Shown: positions 37,674 through 47,977 of the stretch, piece by piece
Layout of the letters: each line of letters begins with the position of its first letter
Position numbering within the stretch: position 1 is the stretch's first letter
From: an uncultured Lachnospiraceae bacterium
GTDB lineage: Bacteria > Bacillota > Clostridia > Lachnospirales > Lachnospiraceae
NCBI GenBank assembly: GCA_947624875.1
Contig: CANQMA010000003.1
Span: 1-64,000 of the forward strand
Reading direction: 5' to 3'
Length of the DNA stretch: 64,000 bases
Position numbers and translations under genes: made by a program
Notes under the pieces: model-generated
The model's database searches: none
What the model saw: only the letters and a program-made list of their open reading frames with translations
Told to the model about the DNA's origin: nothing

Positions 37674-40600
37674 TTGAAACAACTAATTGAAAAACTGGCG
37701 TCCGGAAATGCAGTTTACGAGACGCCGGATGTTGAAATTTCAGAAAACCGAATTGCAGTGGAACTTGAAACCGGACAGACAGTCCGGGGAGAAATTGCGA
37801 TTACAGGAAAGAGCGGACTGCCGGTCAAAGGAGTAGTCTACTCTACGGACAGCCATGTGACTTTTCCAACAAACCAGTTTTTTGGCATCCATAATAAAGT
37901 ATATTATGAGGTTCATGGGAAAAATCTGTCTGAAGGACAAATCTGCAGTGGAACCATCAGTGTGATTACGACCGGAGGAGATTACGCCATTCCTTTCGGA
38001 ATCACAATCAAAAAAACAGCCATTCAGTCAACGAAGGGAACGATTTCCACACTGCAGGAATTTGTAAAACTGGTGCAGGAGAGTTATGACGAAGCATTAC
38101 TGATTTTCTTATCAAAAGAATTTCAGGTTCGGTTTTTAAAAAATGACAGTTTCGGGTACACATTGTATCATCAGGTGATGAAAAATGGAAACCGGCATGC
38201 TGCGCTCGAAGAGTTTCTGGTGGGTATGGGACTAAAAGAACCGGTGCGCATCCAGATTAAGGAACATCTTCAGGAGTTTACGGACATTGAGGAAAACTAT
38301 GCAGATACGATTGAGATTGTCAAAAGCACATGGGGATACATGGATGTCGACGTCCTTGTAGAGGGTGATTTTCTCTATAACTGCAAAGAAAAAATTTCCG
38401 GAGAGGAATTTAACGGAAAAATTGCAGAGTATCAGTATTTTATGAATGCAAATAAACTGCATGGGGGAAGTAATCATGCGAAAATCACATTTTTGACTTT
38501 TCATGATACGGTTACCTTTGATGTCGTGATTGTCAATCAAAAGGACAGTCTTGAAACATATCTAAACGAGAAAAGGAATCATGTAGATCTGGTCAAAAAA
38601 TATCTGGACTTTAGAACCGGCGTCATAGACAGTGTCCAATGGACTAAAGCAATGAACCAGCTGGCGGAAGAACGGTTTGCAGCGGATAAAAATGATGTGA
38701 CCGGTCTGTTGTTACAGGCACATGTATCTCTTGTGCAAAACCACAATGAAGAAGCATCTGGATTTCTGAATCAGATTTCGCACAATCTCACGAAAAACCG
38801 GGCGCATCAGATGGAGGAATACTGTTTTTACTTGTATTTGCGGACGCTTTATAAAAATAATCCGGAATATACGCATGACATTAAAGAAGAAATCAAAGGC
38901 TATTTTGAAAACGGACATGACTCATGGCAGCTTTTATGGATTCTGTTTTATATGGACGAGCGCTATGAGGAAAACCCAAGTCTCAAATATACAATGATTA
39001 AACGATTATTTGCGCAGGGTTGTCATAGTCCTGTCATGTACTATGAGGCGTCGGATATTCTTGTAAAACAGCCGGAATTACTGCGCGTGATAAATCCGTT
39101 CGAAGTCCAGGTCCTAAATTTTGCCGGCCGGTACCATATGGTAAAGGAAGAACTGGCAAAGCAGACGGCGACGCTTTTGAATAATCAAAAAAATTTCAAT
39201 CAGACCTATTTTCAGATTTTGACCAGAATATACGAGGATACCAAACAGGATGATATCTTAGCGTGTATCTGCGCCATGATTATCAACGGAGAGAAAACCG
39301 ACCATAAATATTTTTCATGGCTGGAACTGGGAGTCCGGCACGAATTGAAACTGACCAATCTCTATGAGTACTATATCTATGCGGCGGATACAGAAAGTTT
39401 TGCTCCGCTGCAGATGGCGGCGTACCGTTATTTTTCTTATGGAACGGATACATTGGCAGAAAAGAAAGATTATTTTTATGCCAATTTAATTGTAAATCTC
39501 AAAGAGGATGGACAAATTTACCCGAAATACAGAGAAGAACTTGAAAAGTATGTGACGTCACAGATTTTACAGGGAAAAAACAACCGTTTTCTGCAGATTG
39601 TTTACAATGAGGTGCTTTCAAAAGAATTTGTTGTAGACGACATGGAAAACAGGATGTTTCAGATTTTAAACACGTATGAGATCCATGTACCGAATCAGAA
39701 TGTCAAGGCAGTTTATGTATGCCGGAAGGAAACCGGGCAGGCGCAGATGACAGCGCTTGACTGCGGTGTGGCGAATATTCAGATAGACACTAAAAATCCG
39801 GTCATTACCTTTATGGATTATCAGGGACGGATTTACGCCAAAACCGATTATGACCTGATGCCGTTAACCTTAAACATTCAGCTTGAGAGCAAGAACATGA
39901 ATGATATTCAGGTGCTCCGTATGGTTGAAGAAATGATGGAAAATCCATCCGGTCATCAGGGAAAAATCTCTGAATTGAAGCGGGCGGTTGAAATGCCCGG
40001 AATTTCAAAACAGTTTGAATTGGCATTGAAAGAGTTTATTGTTGATTACTATTACAAAGGTTTTGACCAGGGAGATTTAGACATTTATTTATTGTCTCTG
40101 GATCTCAGAGAACTGACGATTCCATCGAGAAATAAGGTAATGGAAATCTTGATCAGGCGAAATCTGTTTGAAATGGCATATCCCCATATTGCCCGGTACG
40201 GTTATCAGGGAATTCAGAAGGAACTTTTGGAACAACTTTGTCTGTCTCTGGTATCCAAAGAGGAGTTTTTTGGAAATAAACTGCTGACAGAGATGTGTTC
40301 CGTGATTTTCAGAAACGGATGCCGGGAAAAATCTATTTTAACGTATCTCGGAAAGTATTATGAAGCCGGATCGCTGGAACTTTATCAGTTATTCCTTGCC
40401 TTACAGGCAAAAGAAATTGAGGATAACACGCTGGCGGAAAGACTCTTGATTCAGTATCTCTTTGAGGCGAATACCGGGGACGAGATTTACAATATTTATC
40501 GGGAGTATTTAAAGCAGCCGACATCATCGGTGGTCCGCAGGGCATTTTACACCTATGTCACTTACAATTATTTTATTAAAAAGGTTCAGTGCCCGAAGAT

Positions 40601-41210
40601 TGTCTGGGAAATACTGGAACAGGAATATGCAGACGGATTTCAGACAACGCTCATTACGAAAATTGCATTTATGGAGGTTTTGTCAAAAAAAGAACAACTG
40701 ACAGAGCAGCAGATTACGATTGCAAAAAAACTTCTGGAGGATTTAGCAAAAAATCATATTCTATTTGATTTCTATAAGAAATTTAATCAATGGTTTAAGG
40801 TGCCATATCACATGATTGATAAGACGGTGATCGATTTCCGGACAAATCCACGCCACCATGTGGATATTACCTATCGGATTAAAACAGAAGAAGGCTTTAC
40901 GAAAACGGTAACAGAGGAAATGGGCAGCGTTTATCAGGGAATCTTTTCCAAGGAGATTATTATGTTTTATGGGGAAGAGATTCATTACAGCATTAAAGAG
41001 TACTCGGACGAGTTTCCTGAGGGAAAAATCGTTGATAACTATTCAGTAAAAATCACGGATAAAAATACCTATAATGATGAGACCCGTTTTGGGATGATTA
41101 ACGGAATGATGATATGTAGACAACTAGAGCGCGACGAGGCTGCAAGAGAGATTATGCAGTCATATGAGCTTGACCGTGTTGCAGGTCAAAAGCTGTTTAA
41201 GCTTTTATAG
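37674..41210 (+). CDS. DUF5717-like 1178-aa protein (beta-sandwich N-term, long helical middle, beta C-term)
   Basis: Single continuous ORF with TTG start; N-term GQTVRGEIAITGKSGLPVKGVVYSTDSHVTFPTNQFFG...; no enzyme motif seen. Confidence 0.75.
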   Translation: MKQLIEKLASGNAVYETPDVEISENRIAVELETGQTVRGEIAITGKSGLPVKGVVYSTDSHVTFPTNQFFGIHNKVYYEVHGKNLSEGQICSGTISVITTGGDYAIPFGITIKKTAIQSTKGTISTLQEFVKLVQESYDEALLIFLSKEFQVRFLKNDSFGYTLYHQVMKNGNRHAALEEFLVGMGLKEPVRIQIKEHLQEFTDIEENYADTIEIVKSTWGYMDVDVLVEGDFLYNCKEKISGEEFNGKIAEYQYFMNANKLHGGSNHAKITFLTFHDTVTFDVVIVNQKDSLETYLNEKRNHVDLVKKYLDFRTGVIDSVQWTKAMNQLAEERFAADKNDVTGLLLQAHVSLVQNHNEEASGFLNQISHNLTKNRAHQMEEYCFYLYLRTLYKNNPEYTHDIKEEIKGYFENGHDSWQLLWILFYMDERYEENPSLKYTMIKRLFAQGCHSPVMYYEASDILVKQPELLRVINPFEVQVLNFAGRYHMVKEELAKQTATLLNNQKNFNQTYFQILTRIYEDTKQDDILACICAMIINGEKTDHKYFSWLELGVRHELKLTNLYEYYIYAADTESFAPLQMAAYRYFSYGTDTLAEKKDYFYANLIVNLKEDGQIYPKYREELEKYVTSQILQGKNNRFLQIVYNEVLSKEFVVDDMENRMFQILNTYEIHVPNQNVKAVYVCRKETGQAQMTALDCGVANIQIDTKNPVITFMDYQGRIYAKTDYDLMPLTLNIQLESKNMNDIQVLRMVEEMMENPSGHQGKISELKRAVEMPGISKQFELALKEFIVDYYYKGFDQGDLDIYLLSLDLRELTIPSRNKVMEILIRRNLFEMAYPHIARYGYQGIQKELLEQLCLSLVSKEEFFGNKLLTEMCSVIFRNGCREKSILTYLGKYYEAGSLELYQLFLALQAKEIEDNTLAERLLIQYLFEANTGDEIYNIYREYLKQPTSSVVRRAFYTYVTYNYFIKKVQCPKIVWEILEQEYADGFQTTLITKIAFMEVLSKKEQLTEQQITIAKKLLEDLAKNHILFDFYKKFNQWFKVPYHMIDKTVIDFRTNPRHHVDITYRIKTEEGFTKTVTEEMGSVYQGIFSKEIIMFYGEEIHYSIKEYSDEFPEGKIVDNYSVKITDKNTYNDETRFGMINGMMICRQLERDEAAREIMQSYELDRVAGQKLFKLL

Positions 41211-41219
41211 GAGGATAGA

Positions 41220-42455
41220 GTGGTTAAGGGAATGATTTTAGGAATTGATTTTTCAAGCGATTATACACAGATGGCATATTTAGATGAGAAAGGAAATCCG
41301 CAGTCACTCAGTTTTGGAACCTCAGATAATTTTCTGATTCCGACTGTGGCGTGCTATCACAGTAAACTAAAAGAATGGTATGCAGGCGAGGAGGCAGTCA
41401 ATAAAAAGGCGGAAGAGAACTGTCAGTTTTATGAAAAACTGCCTGAATTGTCTGTAGAAAAATCCAGTGGAGAAAATCTGGAACGGATTCAGTCTTACTT
41501 CTCCCATTTACTGCAGTGGGCGCAGGCAAGAGGTGAGAACCGGAAAATTAAAAATATTGTGATCACCTTAGAGGAAGTGGTTCCTGATTTGTTGGACATC
41601 ATCACAGAAGCGTTGTCAAATCTGGGCTATCCGGCAGAAGACATCAAGGTTATCAGCCACTCTGAAAGTCTTGTTTATTATGTGTTAAACCAAAATAAAG
41701 AGATTTGGATGAATCAGGTATATCATTTCCATATGAATTCTGACCGGTTTTTACTGAGACAGTTGAAAGTGCTTCATGGCAGAGGTCCCTCTATGGCATA
41801 TGTGGATATGGAAGATCTGACAAACATGATTTCCATGAAAACTGTTTTAGAGGATCCGCAGCACGCAGACGAGCTGCTGTACCAATTTTTGGAAGAACGG
41901 TTCCAACATCAGGTAGTTTCAGGAATTTATCTGTCGGGAGACGGATTTTATGCGCAGGATTGGGAAAAATCCATCCGGCTGATGTGTCAGAACCGACGGG
42001 TATTTAAAGGAAATAATCTGATGGTCAAAGGAGCAGTGTACGCTGCAAAAGAATTCTTTTATACCCCTGTTTTAGAAAATTACCTAATTTCCTGTAAAGG
42101 GCGTACCAGAGTCAAAGTGACAATGGAGGTCCAGTACAAGGAACGGGATCATTCCATTGTGCTCTCCAATGTGGGAGATTACTGGTCCCAGGCAAAAGCA
42201 AAGGCAGAATGCATTATGGAAATGCCAACCAAGGCAACGTTTGTAGTAAACGATCTGCTCAATCAGACAAAAGACGCCTTTGAGATCGACCTGACCGGAT
42301 TTCCAAAGAGACCTCCGAAAACAACACGGATTGAGATTAATTTCAGATATCTTTCTGAAGACCAGTTTGAAGTGACAATCCGGGATTTGGGATTTGGAGA
42401 ATTATTTAAAAGTTCAGAAATGGAGGTTCGAAAGGTTTATCAGTTAAAAGCATAG
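41220..42455 (+). CDS. DUF5716-like protein with Hsp70/actin-type nucleotide-binding fold
   Basis: GTG start, 9 nt after the previous stop; MILGIDFSSDYTQMAYLDEKGNPQSLSFGTSDNFLIPTVACYHSKLKEWYAGEEAV parallels the DnaK phosphate-1 region (GIDLGTTNS...PSVVAF...GEPA). No substrate-binding/lid domain. Confidence 0.75.
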   Translation: MVKGMILGIDFSSDYTQMAYLDEKGNPQSLSFGTSDNFLIPTVACYHSKLKEWYAGEEAVNKKAEENCQFYEKLPELSVEKSSGENLERIQSYFSHLLQWAQARGENRKIKNIVITLEEVVPDLLDIITEALSNLGYPAEDIKVISHSESLVYYVLNQNKEIWMNQVYHFHMNSDRFLLRQLKVLHGRGPSMAYVDMEDLTNMISMKTVLEDPQHADELLYQFLEERFQHQVVSGIYLSGDGFYAQDWEKSIRLMCQNRRVFKGNNLMVKGAVYAAKEFFYTPVLENYLISCKGRTRVKVTMEVQYKERDHSIVLSNVGDYWSQAKAKAECIMEMPTKATFVVNDLLNQTKDAFEIDLTGFPKRPPKTTRIEINFRYLSEDQFEVTIRDLGFGELFKSSEMEVRKVYQLKA

Positions 42456-42515
42456 AAAATCCTGATGAAAGATTCCGGGACAGAAGATGTTATATCTGAT
42501 AAATGAAAAAGAGTT

Positions 42516-43295
42516 ATGAATAAATTGATGCTTTGTACAATCCATACAGAAAAACCATATTATATTAAAGAAGTCAATAAAAATATTTATTCGATTGAGG
42601 AACTGGCGTATTACTTATACAATTATTTATATTTGGTAGACCAGTCATTTTTCAGCGACAGTCTGCTCGATTATATTGAAAATGAATTGAATCAGCAGAC
42701 CATTGCGGCAGGAATTCGGCAGATTGTTGAAAATCAGGGCGGTCTGGGAGAAAAAATATCGTTTGTCATCAAGAATTCCGGATATTATTCCGAGCGTGAA
42801 GCGGAGAAGATTGAAAATCATCTGATTATGCTCAGTTCCAAAACTTCTGCGGAACGGGTGAAGGCAAAAGCGGATATGTTAATGGATAATGGAAAATATA
42901 ATATGGCAATCAATTATTACAACAGTATATTAAAAAAATCCGTCAATAACGAACTGCCGGAACGGTTTTACGGGGATGTCTATAACAATCTGGGCGTAGC
43001 GTATACCAGACTGTTTGCATACGAGGAGGCGGCTGCCGCTTTTCGTTGCGCATACCGGTTGAACACGTCCACGGAATCGCTGGAATCCCTCTTACTCTGC
43101 TCGATTCTTACAGGAGACGAGGAACGTCTTAAAGTCGACCAGAAAAAGTATGGAGTATCGGATACCGTGATTAACCGGATCCGCTCCGAGGTGATTAAGC
43201 AGCGGGTTCATATCCAGTCGGAATGGAACGAAGAAAAAGAAGCAGAATATATCAAAAAGTGCAAAAAAGAGTATGTTGTTGAAATCAACAGCTGA
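42516..43295 (+). CDS. TPR-like protein
   Basis: MNKLMLCTIHTEKPYYIKEVNKNIYSIEELAYYLYNYLYLVDQSFF...; NMAINYYNSILKK... FYGDVYNNLGVAYTRLFAYEEAAAAFRCAYRLN. Confidence 0.7.
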   Translation: MNKLMLCTIHTEKPYYIKEVNKNIYSIEELAYYLYNYLYLVDQSFFSDSLLDYIENELNQQTIAAGIRQIVENQGGLGEKISFVIKNSGYYSEREAEKIENHLIMLSSKTSAERVKAKADMLMDNGKYNMAINYYNSILKKSVNNELPERFYGDVYNNLGVAYTRLFAYEEAAAAFRCAYRLNTSTESLESLLLCSILTGDEERLKVDQKKYGVSDTVINRIRSEVIKQRVHIQSEWNEEKEAEYIKKCKKEYVVEINS

Positions 43296-43387: not shown

Positions 43388-43650
43388 AAATGAGAAATAC
43401 TGGGAAAAAGAGGAGTAACAGCAAACCTTTTTCAGAGAGCAGAGGATGGTGGAAACTTTGCAAAGTAGTGGCTGTGAAGGTAGCTTTGGAGTAGAAACGG
43501 TGAAAGATATTGGTAGTCGTTTCCGGTTCGTCCCCGTTACAGGATAAGATGAGTGATAAAAAAGGTGGTACCGCGAGCAAATCGCCCTTTTTGAAACGGT
43601 ACCAGCATAAAAAGTCATGCCGATACCAGAGGTGTGGCTTTTTTATTGTG
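43388..43650 (+). promoter_or_regulatory. T-box leader of valS
   Basis: Stem I elements (GAGGAGTAACAGC, CAGAGAG, GGATGGTGGAAAC), T-box AAGGTGGTACCGCGAGC at about 43562-43578, terminator AAAAAGTCATGCC...GGTGTGGCTTTTTT. Confidence 0.92.
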
Positions 43651-46398: not shown

Positions 46399-46548
46399 AT
46401 GATGATTAATTTTGAAGAAGAAATTAAAAAATTTCATCCGAGTCTGGAAATTGAGGAAGCTGAGGACGCAATTTACAACAATAATATCTCTGATATCACA
46501 GATATTATGATTGACATGGTAAATGGTCTCAAAGGTGAAAATAAGTAA
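46399..46548 (+). CDS. Small acidic hypothetical protein (about 49 aa)
   Basis: MMINFEEEIKKFHPSLEIEEAEDAIYNNNISDITDIMIDMVNGLKGENK; RBS AAAGGAG. Confidence 0.6.
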   Translation: MMINFEEEIKKFHPSLEIEEAEDAIYNNNISDITDIMIDMVNGLKGENK

Positions 46549-46564
46549 AGGAAAGGCTGAAACG

Positions 46565-47977
46565 ATGATATGCTATAACTGTGGCAGCGTTCTGACCAAC
46601 AGTGACTATTGCAGCCATTGTGGAATGAACGTGAGTGTTTATAAAAGAATTGTAAAGTTGTCAAACACTTACTATAATGCCGGACTGACAAAAGCGAGAA
46701 ACCGGGATTTGTCCGGCGCTGCAGATACACTGCGGCGCAGCGTTAAGTTAAATAAAAGGAATATTGACGCCAGAAATCTGCTGGGTCTGGTCTACTTTGA
46801 GATGGGTGAAACGGTGCAGGCGTTTTCCGAGTGGGTCATGAGCACCAATATCCAGCCGGATAATAATCCTGCAGACCGGTATCTCACTGCAATCCAGCAG
46901 GAAAAAAGTAAAGTGGATGAACTGAACAGAACGATCAAAAAATTTAATGTGGCTTTAAATTATGCAAAGCATGATACGGATGATATGGCAATTATCCAGC
47001 TGAAAAAGGTACTGAATCAGAATCCGAAGCTGGTCAAGGCATCTCAGTTATTATGTCTGCTTTATATGAAGCAGGGGCAGTATGAGCGTGCAAAGAGGAC
47101 AATTAAAAAATCCCTGAAAGTGGATAAATGCAATCCGTTGAGTATCCGCTATCTGCGTGAAATCAATGAATACGTGGAAAATGAGCGGAAAAATGATCCG
47201 GAAACCGGTATTGAGCGACGGAGAAATCTGCGTGGAGTTCTGGTAGACAGGGAATATCTGAGCGGGAATGACGTCATAACTCCAAACAATAATTTTAAGG
47301 AAGCAGTGGCTGGAGCGCAGGGGATTCTTCATGTGATTATCGGTCTGTTAATCGGAGCGGCGCTGGTGTACTTTATTGTAATGCCGGCCCGGACCTCCAA
47401 AGTGACAGAGGAAAAAAATGAGCAGGCAGTGGAGTATAAGCGGGAGATTGCAATCAAAGATTCTACTTATGACTCTCTCGAGTCCGAATATAATGCGCTG
47501 AAAACGGATTATGATAAACTGACCGACGAAAAAGGGGATGCGGACCAGCATGAGAAAACAGTCAGTGACAATTACAAATATCTGCTTTCTGCGATTCAGT
47601 ATTATCTGAATGGCAATGATGACAAGAGCGCTGAACAACTAGAGAAGATCAATACATCAGACGGTATGGATATGGACAATTTCAAGGCGGTCTATGATAA
47701 ATTGACCAATGAACTGTCCTCCAAAATGTCACAGAACGCTTATGATGCCGGATTTGAGGCATATGGAGATAAGGACTACGAAACAGCGATTCGTCAGTTT
47801 AAAAAGTGTCTCGAAATCGATAAGGATAATGATGATGCGATTTACTACATGGCGTGGGCGTACAAGAATATGGATGACAGCAAGAATGCAAAAAAATATT
47901 TTAAGAAGATTGCAGATGATTTTCCGGATTCCGAACATGCGGACGTGGCGAGAACACAGGCGAATGATGAGGAATAA
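46565..47977 (+). CDS. Zinc-ribbon + TPR membrane protein
   Basis: MICYNCGSVLTNSDYCSHCGMNV zinc ribbon, TPR repeats, one TM (ILHVIIGLLIGAALVYFIVM), coiled coil, C-term TPR (AYKNMDDSKNAKKYFKKIADDFPDSEHA). Confidence 0.8.
   Translation: MICYNCGSVLTNSDYCSHCGMNVSVYKRIVKLSNTYYNAGLTKARNRDLSGAADTLRRSVKLNKRNIDARNLLGLVYFEMGETVQAFSEWVMSTNIQPDNNPADRYLTAIQQEKSKVDELNRTIKKFNVALNYAKHDTDDMAIIQLKKVLNQNPKLVKASQLLCLLYMKQGQYERAKRTIKKSLKVDKCNPLSIRYLREINEYVENERKNDPETGIERRRNLRGVLVDREYLSGNDVITPNNNFKEAVAGAQGILHVIIGLLIGAALVYFIVMPARTSKVTEEKNEQAVEYKREIAIKDSTYDSLESEYNALKTDYDKLTDEKGDADQHEKTVSDNYKYLLSAIQYYLNGNDDKSAEQLEKINTSDGMDMDNFKAVYDKLTNELSSKMSQNAYDAGFEAYGDKDYETAIRQFKKCLEIDKDNDDAIYYMAWAYKNMDDSKNAKKYFKKIADDFPDSEHADVARTQANDEE

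Follow-up and report, generated by a model that had tools for sequence, protein, structure and literature searches.

The three genes described here lie at positions 37674-43295 of a 64,000-nucleotide (nt) window, the whole stretch of DNA analyzed, from contig CANQMA010000003.1 of an uncultured bacterium of the family Lachnospiraceae (hereafter the host family; order Lachnospirales). They encode a large DUF5717 protein (gene 1), a DUF5716 protein (gene 2), and a tetratricopeptide repeat (TPR) protein (gene 3). All three open reading frames (ORFs) are on the plus strand, separated by gaps of 9 and 60 nt, in agreement with the lengths and co-directional arrangement reported in a first-pass annotation made from the sequence alone. 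That annotation had read the genes as a dedicated chaperone-like or cytoskeletal assembly. The features of the locus are collected in Table 1.

Gene 1 was suspected to be DUF5717-like, and the match covers its full length, with DUF5717_N (PF18984) at amino acids (aa) 1-865 (1.3e-264) and the DUF5717 C-terminal family (PF18983) at aa 869-1175 (1.3e-75). The AlphaFold model resolves an alternating layout of immunoglobulin (Ig)-like domain, helical segment, Ig-like domain, solenoid, beta domain, solenoid, Ig-like domain, and helices. The beta-rich ends and helical-repeat middle seen in the first pass are thus visible in the model, together with an extra Ig-like domain mid-protein. Foldseek matched the Ig part, weakly in TM-score (template modeling score), to ASH/Hydin-type Ig domains of the ciliary central pair, and the first solenoid to TPR superhelices such as Ski3 and Naa15. 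These are domain-level matches only (Ig-like, solenoid; TM-score < 0.15), and we do not claim an ancestry for DUF5717 from them. The TPR-like character of gene 3 was recovered by Pfam.

Table 1. Features of the three-gene module and the adjoining leader in the window (pLDDT, predicted local distance difference test; pTM, predicted TM-score; NBD and SBD, nucleotide- and substrate-binding domains)
Feature	Position	Strand	Evidence
Gene 1: DUF5717 scaffold protein, 1178 aa, TTG start	37674-41210	+	Pfam PF18984 + PF18983; AlphaFold pLDDT 86.0, pTM 0.52
Gene 1 Ig-like beta-sandwich 1, aa 18-124	37725-38045	+	AlphaFold secondary structure; Foldseek
Gene 1 Ig-like beta-sandwich 2, aa 190-288	38241-38537	+	AlphaFold
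Gene 1 alpha-solenoid I, aa 293-665	38550-39668	+	AlphaFold; Foldseek
Gene 1 beta domain 3, aa 667-730	39672-39863	+	AlphaFold
Gene 1 alpha-solenoid II, aa 744-1048	39903-40817	+	AlphaFold
Gene 1 C-terminal Ig-like beta domain, aa 1050-1126, helices after	40821-41051	+	AlphaFold
Gene 2: DUF5716, putative lidless pseudo-Hsp70, 411 aa, GTG start	41220-42455	+	Pfam PF18980, AlphaFold, Foldseek, hhalign, tree
Gene 2 degenerate NBD, aa 1-285	41220-42074	+	ATP-site residues lost
Gene 2 site of deleted NBD subdomain IIB (DnaK ~229-290), about aa 203-229	41826-41906	+	Alignment
Gene 2 SBD-beta-like domain, aa 288-408, no alpha lid after	42081-42443	+	AlphaFold, Foldseek, alignment
Gene 3: TPR protein with conserved N-terminal helical region, 259 aa, ATG start	42516-43295	+	Pfam TPR_1 1.5e-7
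Gene 3 TPR repeats, aa 118-183	42867-43064	+	Pfam
T-box leader before valyl-tRNA synthetase gene (start 43691)	43393-43592		Rfam RF00230, 124 bits

Conservation of the module and a larger operon in related families

In a survey of one genome per genus, DUF5716 was found in 145 of the 150 genera of the host family, nearly always as a single copy. Many of the surveyed genomes are metagenome-assembled; among host-family genomes with a completeness of at least 90%, 122/125 carry it. Across 196 genomes of the order, DUF5716 matched 89 and DUF5717_N matched 94, and their presence agreed in 187/196 (a cross-count between search lists that was tallied by hand). The order DUF5717, DUF5716, TPR was identical in 25/25 host-family loci read, and in most of these the intergenic gaps range from overlap to ~20 nt. 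This conservation far exceeds chance, and it bears out two expectations of the first-pass annotation, namely that the three genes co-occur in related genomes and that they form a real, selected, and dedicated assembly, here chaperone-derived. Among 399 genomes of the phylum, none had DUF5717 outside the host family. Five genera have a single ORF of 684-723 aa in which DUF5716 is fused to the TPR protein, and its TPR part is recognized by the hidden Markov model of the unfused TPR proteins (E 2e-37 to 3e-60). This fusion is the strongest hint that the two proteins touch.

One locus (L019, genome G167) of family f8, a family mostly without the module, has a DUF5716 of the type found in the host family. 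This genome is 5% contaminated, and the gene may reflect contamination or transfer.

In other Lachnospirales families, the same DUF5717 and TPR genes form the two ends of a larger operon. Its order is DUF5717 (930-1330 aa as a single gene, but often split into two of ~400 and ~900 aa), Hsp70-A (~558 aa), a GrpE-like gene (~600 aa, with a C-terminal GrpE domain, PF01025, 3e-13), Hsp70-B (~520 aa, degenerate, matching both DUF5716_C and HSP70), Hsp70-C (~550 aa), Hsp70-D (~700 aa, with a C-terminal VWA domain), and TPR (~390 aa). The same order was observed in ~15 loci from at least seven families; a few loci are fragmented, and one genome (G188) has Hsp70-D and TPR outside the cluster. Judged by their ATP-site residues, Hsp70-A, C, and D look ATP-competent. 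In Hsp70-D, exemplified by L062:2498-4573, an HSP70 match (E 4.5e-96) is fused to the VWA domain, and a DTTGSM motif resembling a metal ion-dependent adhesion site was found with a simple pattern in 9/13 proteins. We found no description of this operon in the open-access literature, subscription journals and preprints being outside the scope of that search. Both this eight-gene ancestor, with a GrpE-like protein of its own, and the flagellum-linked fourth gene described below were missed in the first pass.

When 84,980 species genomes were scanned with Hsp70-C, the matches listed comprised proteins of 63-89% identity in Clostridia only, followed by ordinary Hsp70s at 29-34%, and rarer carriers could be missing from this list; the named Clostridia among those matches were Epulonipiscium and Defluviitaleaceae. 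Candidatus Epulonipiscium (L094, L093), giant surgeonfish-gut bacteria of the order Lachnospirales, has an operon Hsp70-C at 84-89% identity, and the genome of L094 (G007) carries the full operon. Rates of change within the operon are very unequal: Hsp70-C (for example L062:4580-6232) is 58-84% identical across families, while Hsp70-B and DUF5716 diverge to 17-31%. The gene immediately upstream of DUF5717-N in families f16 and f19 (L073:2196-3644, L068:15828-17150, L074, L075, L079) encodes a membrane protein of 390-480 aa whose tail is a long coiled coil. By eye, this protein resembles MotA/ZorA-type proteins, and no Pfam family matches it.

Gene 2 resembles an Hsp70 without a lid or an ATP site

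Gene 2 matches DUF5716_C (PF18980, 2.5e-90), and its AlphaFold model has a pLDDT of 93.1 and a pTM of 0.90. The window proteins are plain members of the DUF5716 and DUF5717 Pfam families, far over the curated cut-offs. Pfam gives these families no function and places neither in a clan with Hsp70, whereas our comparisons show DUF5716 to be an Hsp70 derivative. Foldseek aligned the model across both the NBD and the SBD with DnaK (7krv, E 6e-19), a lidless DnaK (5obu, 9e-19), and Ssz1 of the ribosome-associated complex (RAC; 6sr6, 5e-17). A profile built from DUF5716 alone, without Hsp70-B, aligned with Hsp70-C over 409 columns (hhalign, E 4.6e-24). A phmmer search of the PDB with the single 411-aa sequence found no Hsp70, whereas profiles, AlphaFold, and Foldseek did.

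The Hsp70/actin-superfamily nucleotide-binding fold proposed in the first pass is therefore supported by the Foldseek and hhalign matches to Hsp70s, and of the DnaK-like phosphate loop proposed for the gene 2 start, the GID residues are kept and the GTTN residues are lost. The statement that the protein has no SBD is wrong, because Foldseek aligns the NBD and SBD together and the DUF5716 profile matches Hsp70-C. The C-terminal domain has eight strands in the model and aligns with the Hsp70 SBD-beta; solely the alpha lid is missing, with 20-32 residues beyond the SBD-beta marker column in 32 DUF5716 proteins versus ~150 in DnaK. Gene 2 is accordingly modeled as a lidless Hsp70 derivative composed of NBD and SBD-beta, and the SBD-beta rules out an NBD-only protein of the actin-like MreB/ParM type.

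The ATP site was compared residue by residue. Among 32 DUF5716 proteins, the DnaK-equivalent residues T11, K70, E171, and G342 are kept in 0/32 and T12 and T199 in 1/32 each, the K70 column of the alignment being approximate. All six are retained essentially fully in Hsp70-A, C, D, and DnaK. The window protein has S, D, P, H, R, and D at T11, T12, K70, E171, T199, and G342, and D194 is replaced too. NBD subdomain IIB, the main GrpE docking surface of Hsp70s (DnaK ~229-290), is deleted in 32/32 DUF5716 proteins and present in 15/15 Hsp70-B proteins, including that of family f4. These alignments mark gene 2 as a putative pseudo-ATPase that has lost its ATP site, and we infer that it would neither bind nor hydrolyze ATP.

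Loss of catalytic parts and fast divergence (identity to the window DUF5716 is mostly 20-31%) could also describe an evolutionary relic without function. We consider this next to impossible, given that the gene is retained in nearly all of the most complete genomes, reading frames are intact in nearly all loci, and both the gene order and the SBD-beta residues D389, G391, and G393 are invariant.

Descent from Hsp70-B and loss of the exchange factor

A tree of 68 Hsp70s recovered A, C, D, DUF5716, and DnaK as one clade each, with DUF5716 nested inside B. Support was 100 for B plus DUF5716, 99 for DUF5716 with the B of f4, and 98 for DUF5716 with the B of f22. Topology tests rejected B as its own clade (p-AU, approximately unbiased test, 4e-5) and an origin of DUF5716 from Hsp70-C (p-AU 6e-5). 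DUF5716 is shown by these tests to be a descendant of the operon's Hsp70-B, and therefore the host family kept the Hsp70 that was already degenerate and lost three intact ones.

The gene content of individual genomes shows the loss of Hsp70-A, C, and D, and of the GrpE-like gene, from the host family. Two well-assembled host-family genomes, G005 and the single-contig G193, encode DnaK and MreB-like proteins and none of Hsp70-A, C, or D; a third (G000) has the same pattern, but is 84% complete. Full-operon genomes have two GrpE genes, while 7/8 host-family genomes tested have one and the eighth (G028) has an extra match below the cut-off. Loss of the exchange factor coincides with loss of its docking subdomain: the Hsp70-B of family f4 keeps IIB, and this family still has the GrpE-like gene. 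The operon of L071 (G003, family f4) is intermediate in form, with the GrpE-like protein shortened to 279 aa and Hsp70-D and TPR each split in two frames; DUF5716 already has its nearest relative in this Hsp70-B.

An ATP-driven chaperone or a polymerizing, actin-like cytoskeletal assembly, as modeled in the first pass, would be in keeping with the Hsp70/actin-superfamily fold, the TPR partner, the conserved operon, and the apparent ATP competence of Hsp70-A, C, and D in the ancestral-type operon. However, all seven of the ATP-site residues listed above are replaced in the window protein, subdomain IIB is deleted, and the GrpE-like gene is gone from the host family. An SBD-beta is also present, which actin and MreB lack. 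We therefore regard this model as very unlikely.

A fourth gene tracks flagellin

In some loci, the TPR gene is followed downstream by a fourth gene for a ~400-aa protein with a transmembrane hairpin between coiled coils. It was found in the host family and three others (f4, f7, f22). Within the host family, 64/150 genera gave a strong match, almost always ~1 kb from DUF5716. Flagellin was detected in 63/64 genera with the fourth gene versus 18/86 without (odds ratio 238, Fisher 2e-24), and the sole flagellin-negative carrier (G713) is 6% contaminated and has two DUF5716 genes. To control for phylogeny, we examined 19 independent pairs differing in flagellin, in which the fourth gene changed in the same direction in ~9 and in the opposite direction in 0 (median p 0.004), on a tree built from the module's own proteins and with flagellin as the one flagellar marker. 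The SpoIVA control gave p about 1 in the pair test, and SpoIVA was not associated with the fourth gene (p 0.60). The fourth gene tracks flagellin, not sporulation.

The three core genes are indifferent to both flagella and spores. Flagellin is present in 81/150 host-family genera and SpoIVA in 102/150, against the 145 with DUF5716, and both flagellin and the fourth gene are absent from the genome to which the window belongs. A tie of the core module to sporulation was not borne out, and the presence of the core in non-flagellated genera rules out a strict flagellar gene set.

A looser version, in which the module is primarily a factor for flagellum assembly or placement and its core is retained for a secondary role in non-flagellated genera, would account for the fourth gene's distribution and for the pair test. 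Outside the host family, 64/72 full-operon genomes (again tallied by hand) are flagellated versus 54/102, a comparison confounded by phylogeny. We nevertheless judge this reading unlikely, since the core genes occur in far more genera than flagellin, many flagellated families of the order have no DUF5717, and the core lay outside flagellar gene clusters in the loci read.

Proposed complex and comparison with known systems

We think it probable that the three gene products form a single complex, a core to which an ancestral multi-Hsp70 machine has been reduced, and in which gene 2, descended from Hsp70-B, would act as an ATP-independent subunit similar to Ssz1. The case for one complex rests on the identical gene order, the short gaps, and the DUF5716-TPR fusions. 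DUF5717, with its Ig-like domains alternating with TPR-like solenoids, would be the scaffold. By analogy with Ssz1, gene 2 may be a fixed, lidless, Hsp70-shaped subunit whose SBD-beta would hold a partner segment, a client peptide, or both, and the TPR protein would be bound directly to it. In flagellated relatives, the membrane-hairpin coiled-coil protein may tether the complex to the membrane for a flagellum-dependent role. For some members, this fourth gene directs attention to the envelope or flagellum.

Several points weigh against this interpretation. The loss of the ATP site was read from the sequence, and some residual nucleotide binding may persist. The complex was read from the genes, and the AlphaFold models are monomers. 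Several branches of the Hsp70 tree are long. The presence of the core in genera without flagella confines the flagellar link to the fourth gene.

More tentatively, and at somewhat less than even likelihood in our estimate, a hitherto undescribed protein-assembly machine of four Hsp70s, a dedicated large GrpE, an Ig/TPR-solenoid scaffold, and a TPR adaptor may have been ancestral in part of Lachnospirales. It would have been converted in the host family to an ATP-independent pseudo-Hsp70 complex that became a family core trait, would be membrane-tethered in flagellated members by the coiled-coil hairpin protein, and might assemble or position an envelope- or flagellum-associated structure.

The functional parallel proposed for gene 2 is Ssz1 in yeast RAC, a lidless Hsp70 that does not hydrolyze ATP; Zuo1 completes its SBD-beta (PMC7083937). 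Gene 2 shares with fungal Ssz1 an NBD and SBD-beta without an alpha lid, and no ATP hydrolysis would be expected of it (PMC7083937). Ssz1 is also the constitutive partner of a large scaffold-type protein and needs no exchange factor (PMC7083937), and we liken gene 2 to it on both counts. The two differ in that gene 2 is bacterial, with an independent origin from an operon paralogue, and its partner would be the Ig/TPR-solenoid DUF5717 rather than a J-protein. Ssz1 binds ATP, whereas gene 2 appears to have lost the phosphate and adenosine sites as well as subdomain IIB, and for gene 2 we saw no evidence of ribosome binding. With DnaK-DnaJ-GrpE, the module shares the Hsp70 NBD/SBD-beta fold, to which the full operon adds a GrpE C-terminal domain. 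Unlike that system, the module has no lid, the operon has several Hsp70 paralogues and no J-protein, and the window version has no exchange factor and, as predicted from its residues, no ATPase.

Among described systems, those of GAP1-N2 and the CoCoNuTs come nearest to the module in their parts. GAP1-N2 GTPase systems place Hsp70 and GrpE genes beside an FNIII/TPR-type protein (eLife 2020, PMC7159879), with VWA domains in related themes. An anti-phage system akin to these, with the effector or GTPase displaced, would explain the shared part types (Hsp70s, GrpE, an Ig/FN3-like and TPR protein, and a VWA domain). We hold this to be highly improbable: the DO-GTPase2 domain (PF19993) was found in 0/16 module genomes, with one positive control, no module component had a specific PADLOC match, no effector domain was found, and the module is near-universal and single-copy in the family, unlike patchy defense systems. 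The lack of a DO-GTPase in these 16 genomes also argues against a GTPase-centered conflict system of the GAP1-N2 type. The operon also has four Hsp70 paralogues instead of one or two, its GrpE domain sits on a ~600-aa protein, and its inheritance is vertical. CnuD of the CoCoNuTs (PMC11090510) is likewise a bacterial Hsp70-like NBD/SBD protein with degenerate ATP motifs beside helical repeats, but the module lacks the McrB GTPase, McrC, and HEPN nuclease and belongs to another operon and lineage.

The open-access literature (5.4 million papers, with the scope given above) contained nothing on DUF5717 and one irrelevant mention of DUF5716. Almost all genera of a family that dominates the human gut have the module, as a single copy, and it had no assigned fold, function, or literature. 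The assignment of DUF5716 as a putative lidless pseudo-Hsp70, derived from one of the four Hsp70s of a larger operon, turns this DUF pair into a testable question, namely what role is left to an Hsp70 that has shed its motor, its lid, and its exchange factor. The GrpE-like gene and the subdomain on which GrpE docks were lost in concert, a natural experiment on Hsp70 allostery. In the full operon there is a dedicated machine of four Hsp70s, from which single paralogues could be deleted in turn. The flagellum-linked fourth gene provides a first phenotype to test.

Neighboring genes

Gene 1 is preceded, at a distance of 14 nt, by the AAA+ gene mgsA/rarA. On the 3' side of gene 3, the valyl-tRNA synthetase gene (valS) has a T-box leader of its own, the mark of a separate transcription unit, and the module therefore stops at gene 3. 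Downstream of valS, positions 46523-47977 encode a 484-aa protein that has a membrane segment, TPR repeats at either end, and an N-terminal start that looks like a zinc ribbon. In some relatives (L204, L217, L219), valS is followed by genes of the same cluster as this protein.

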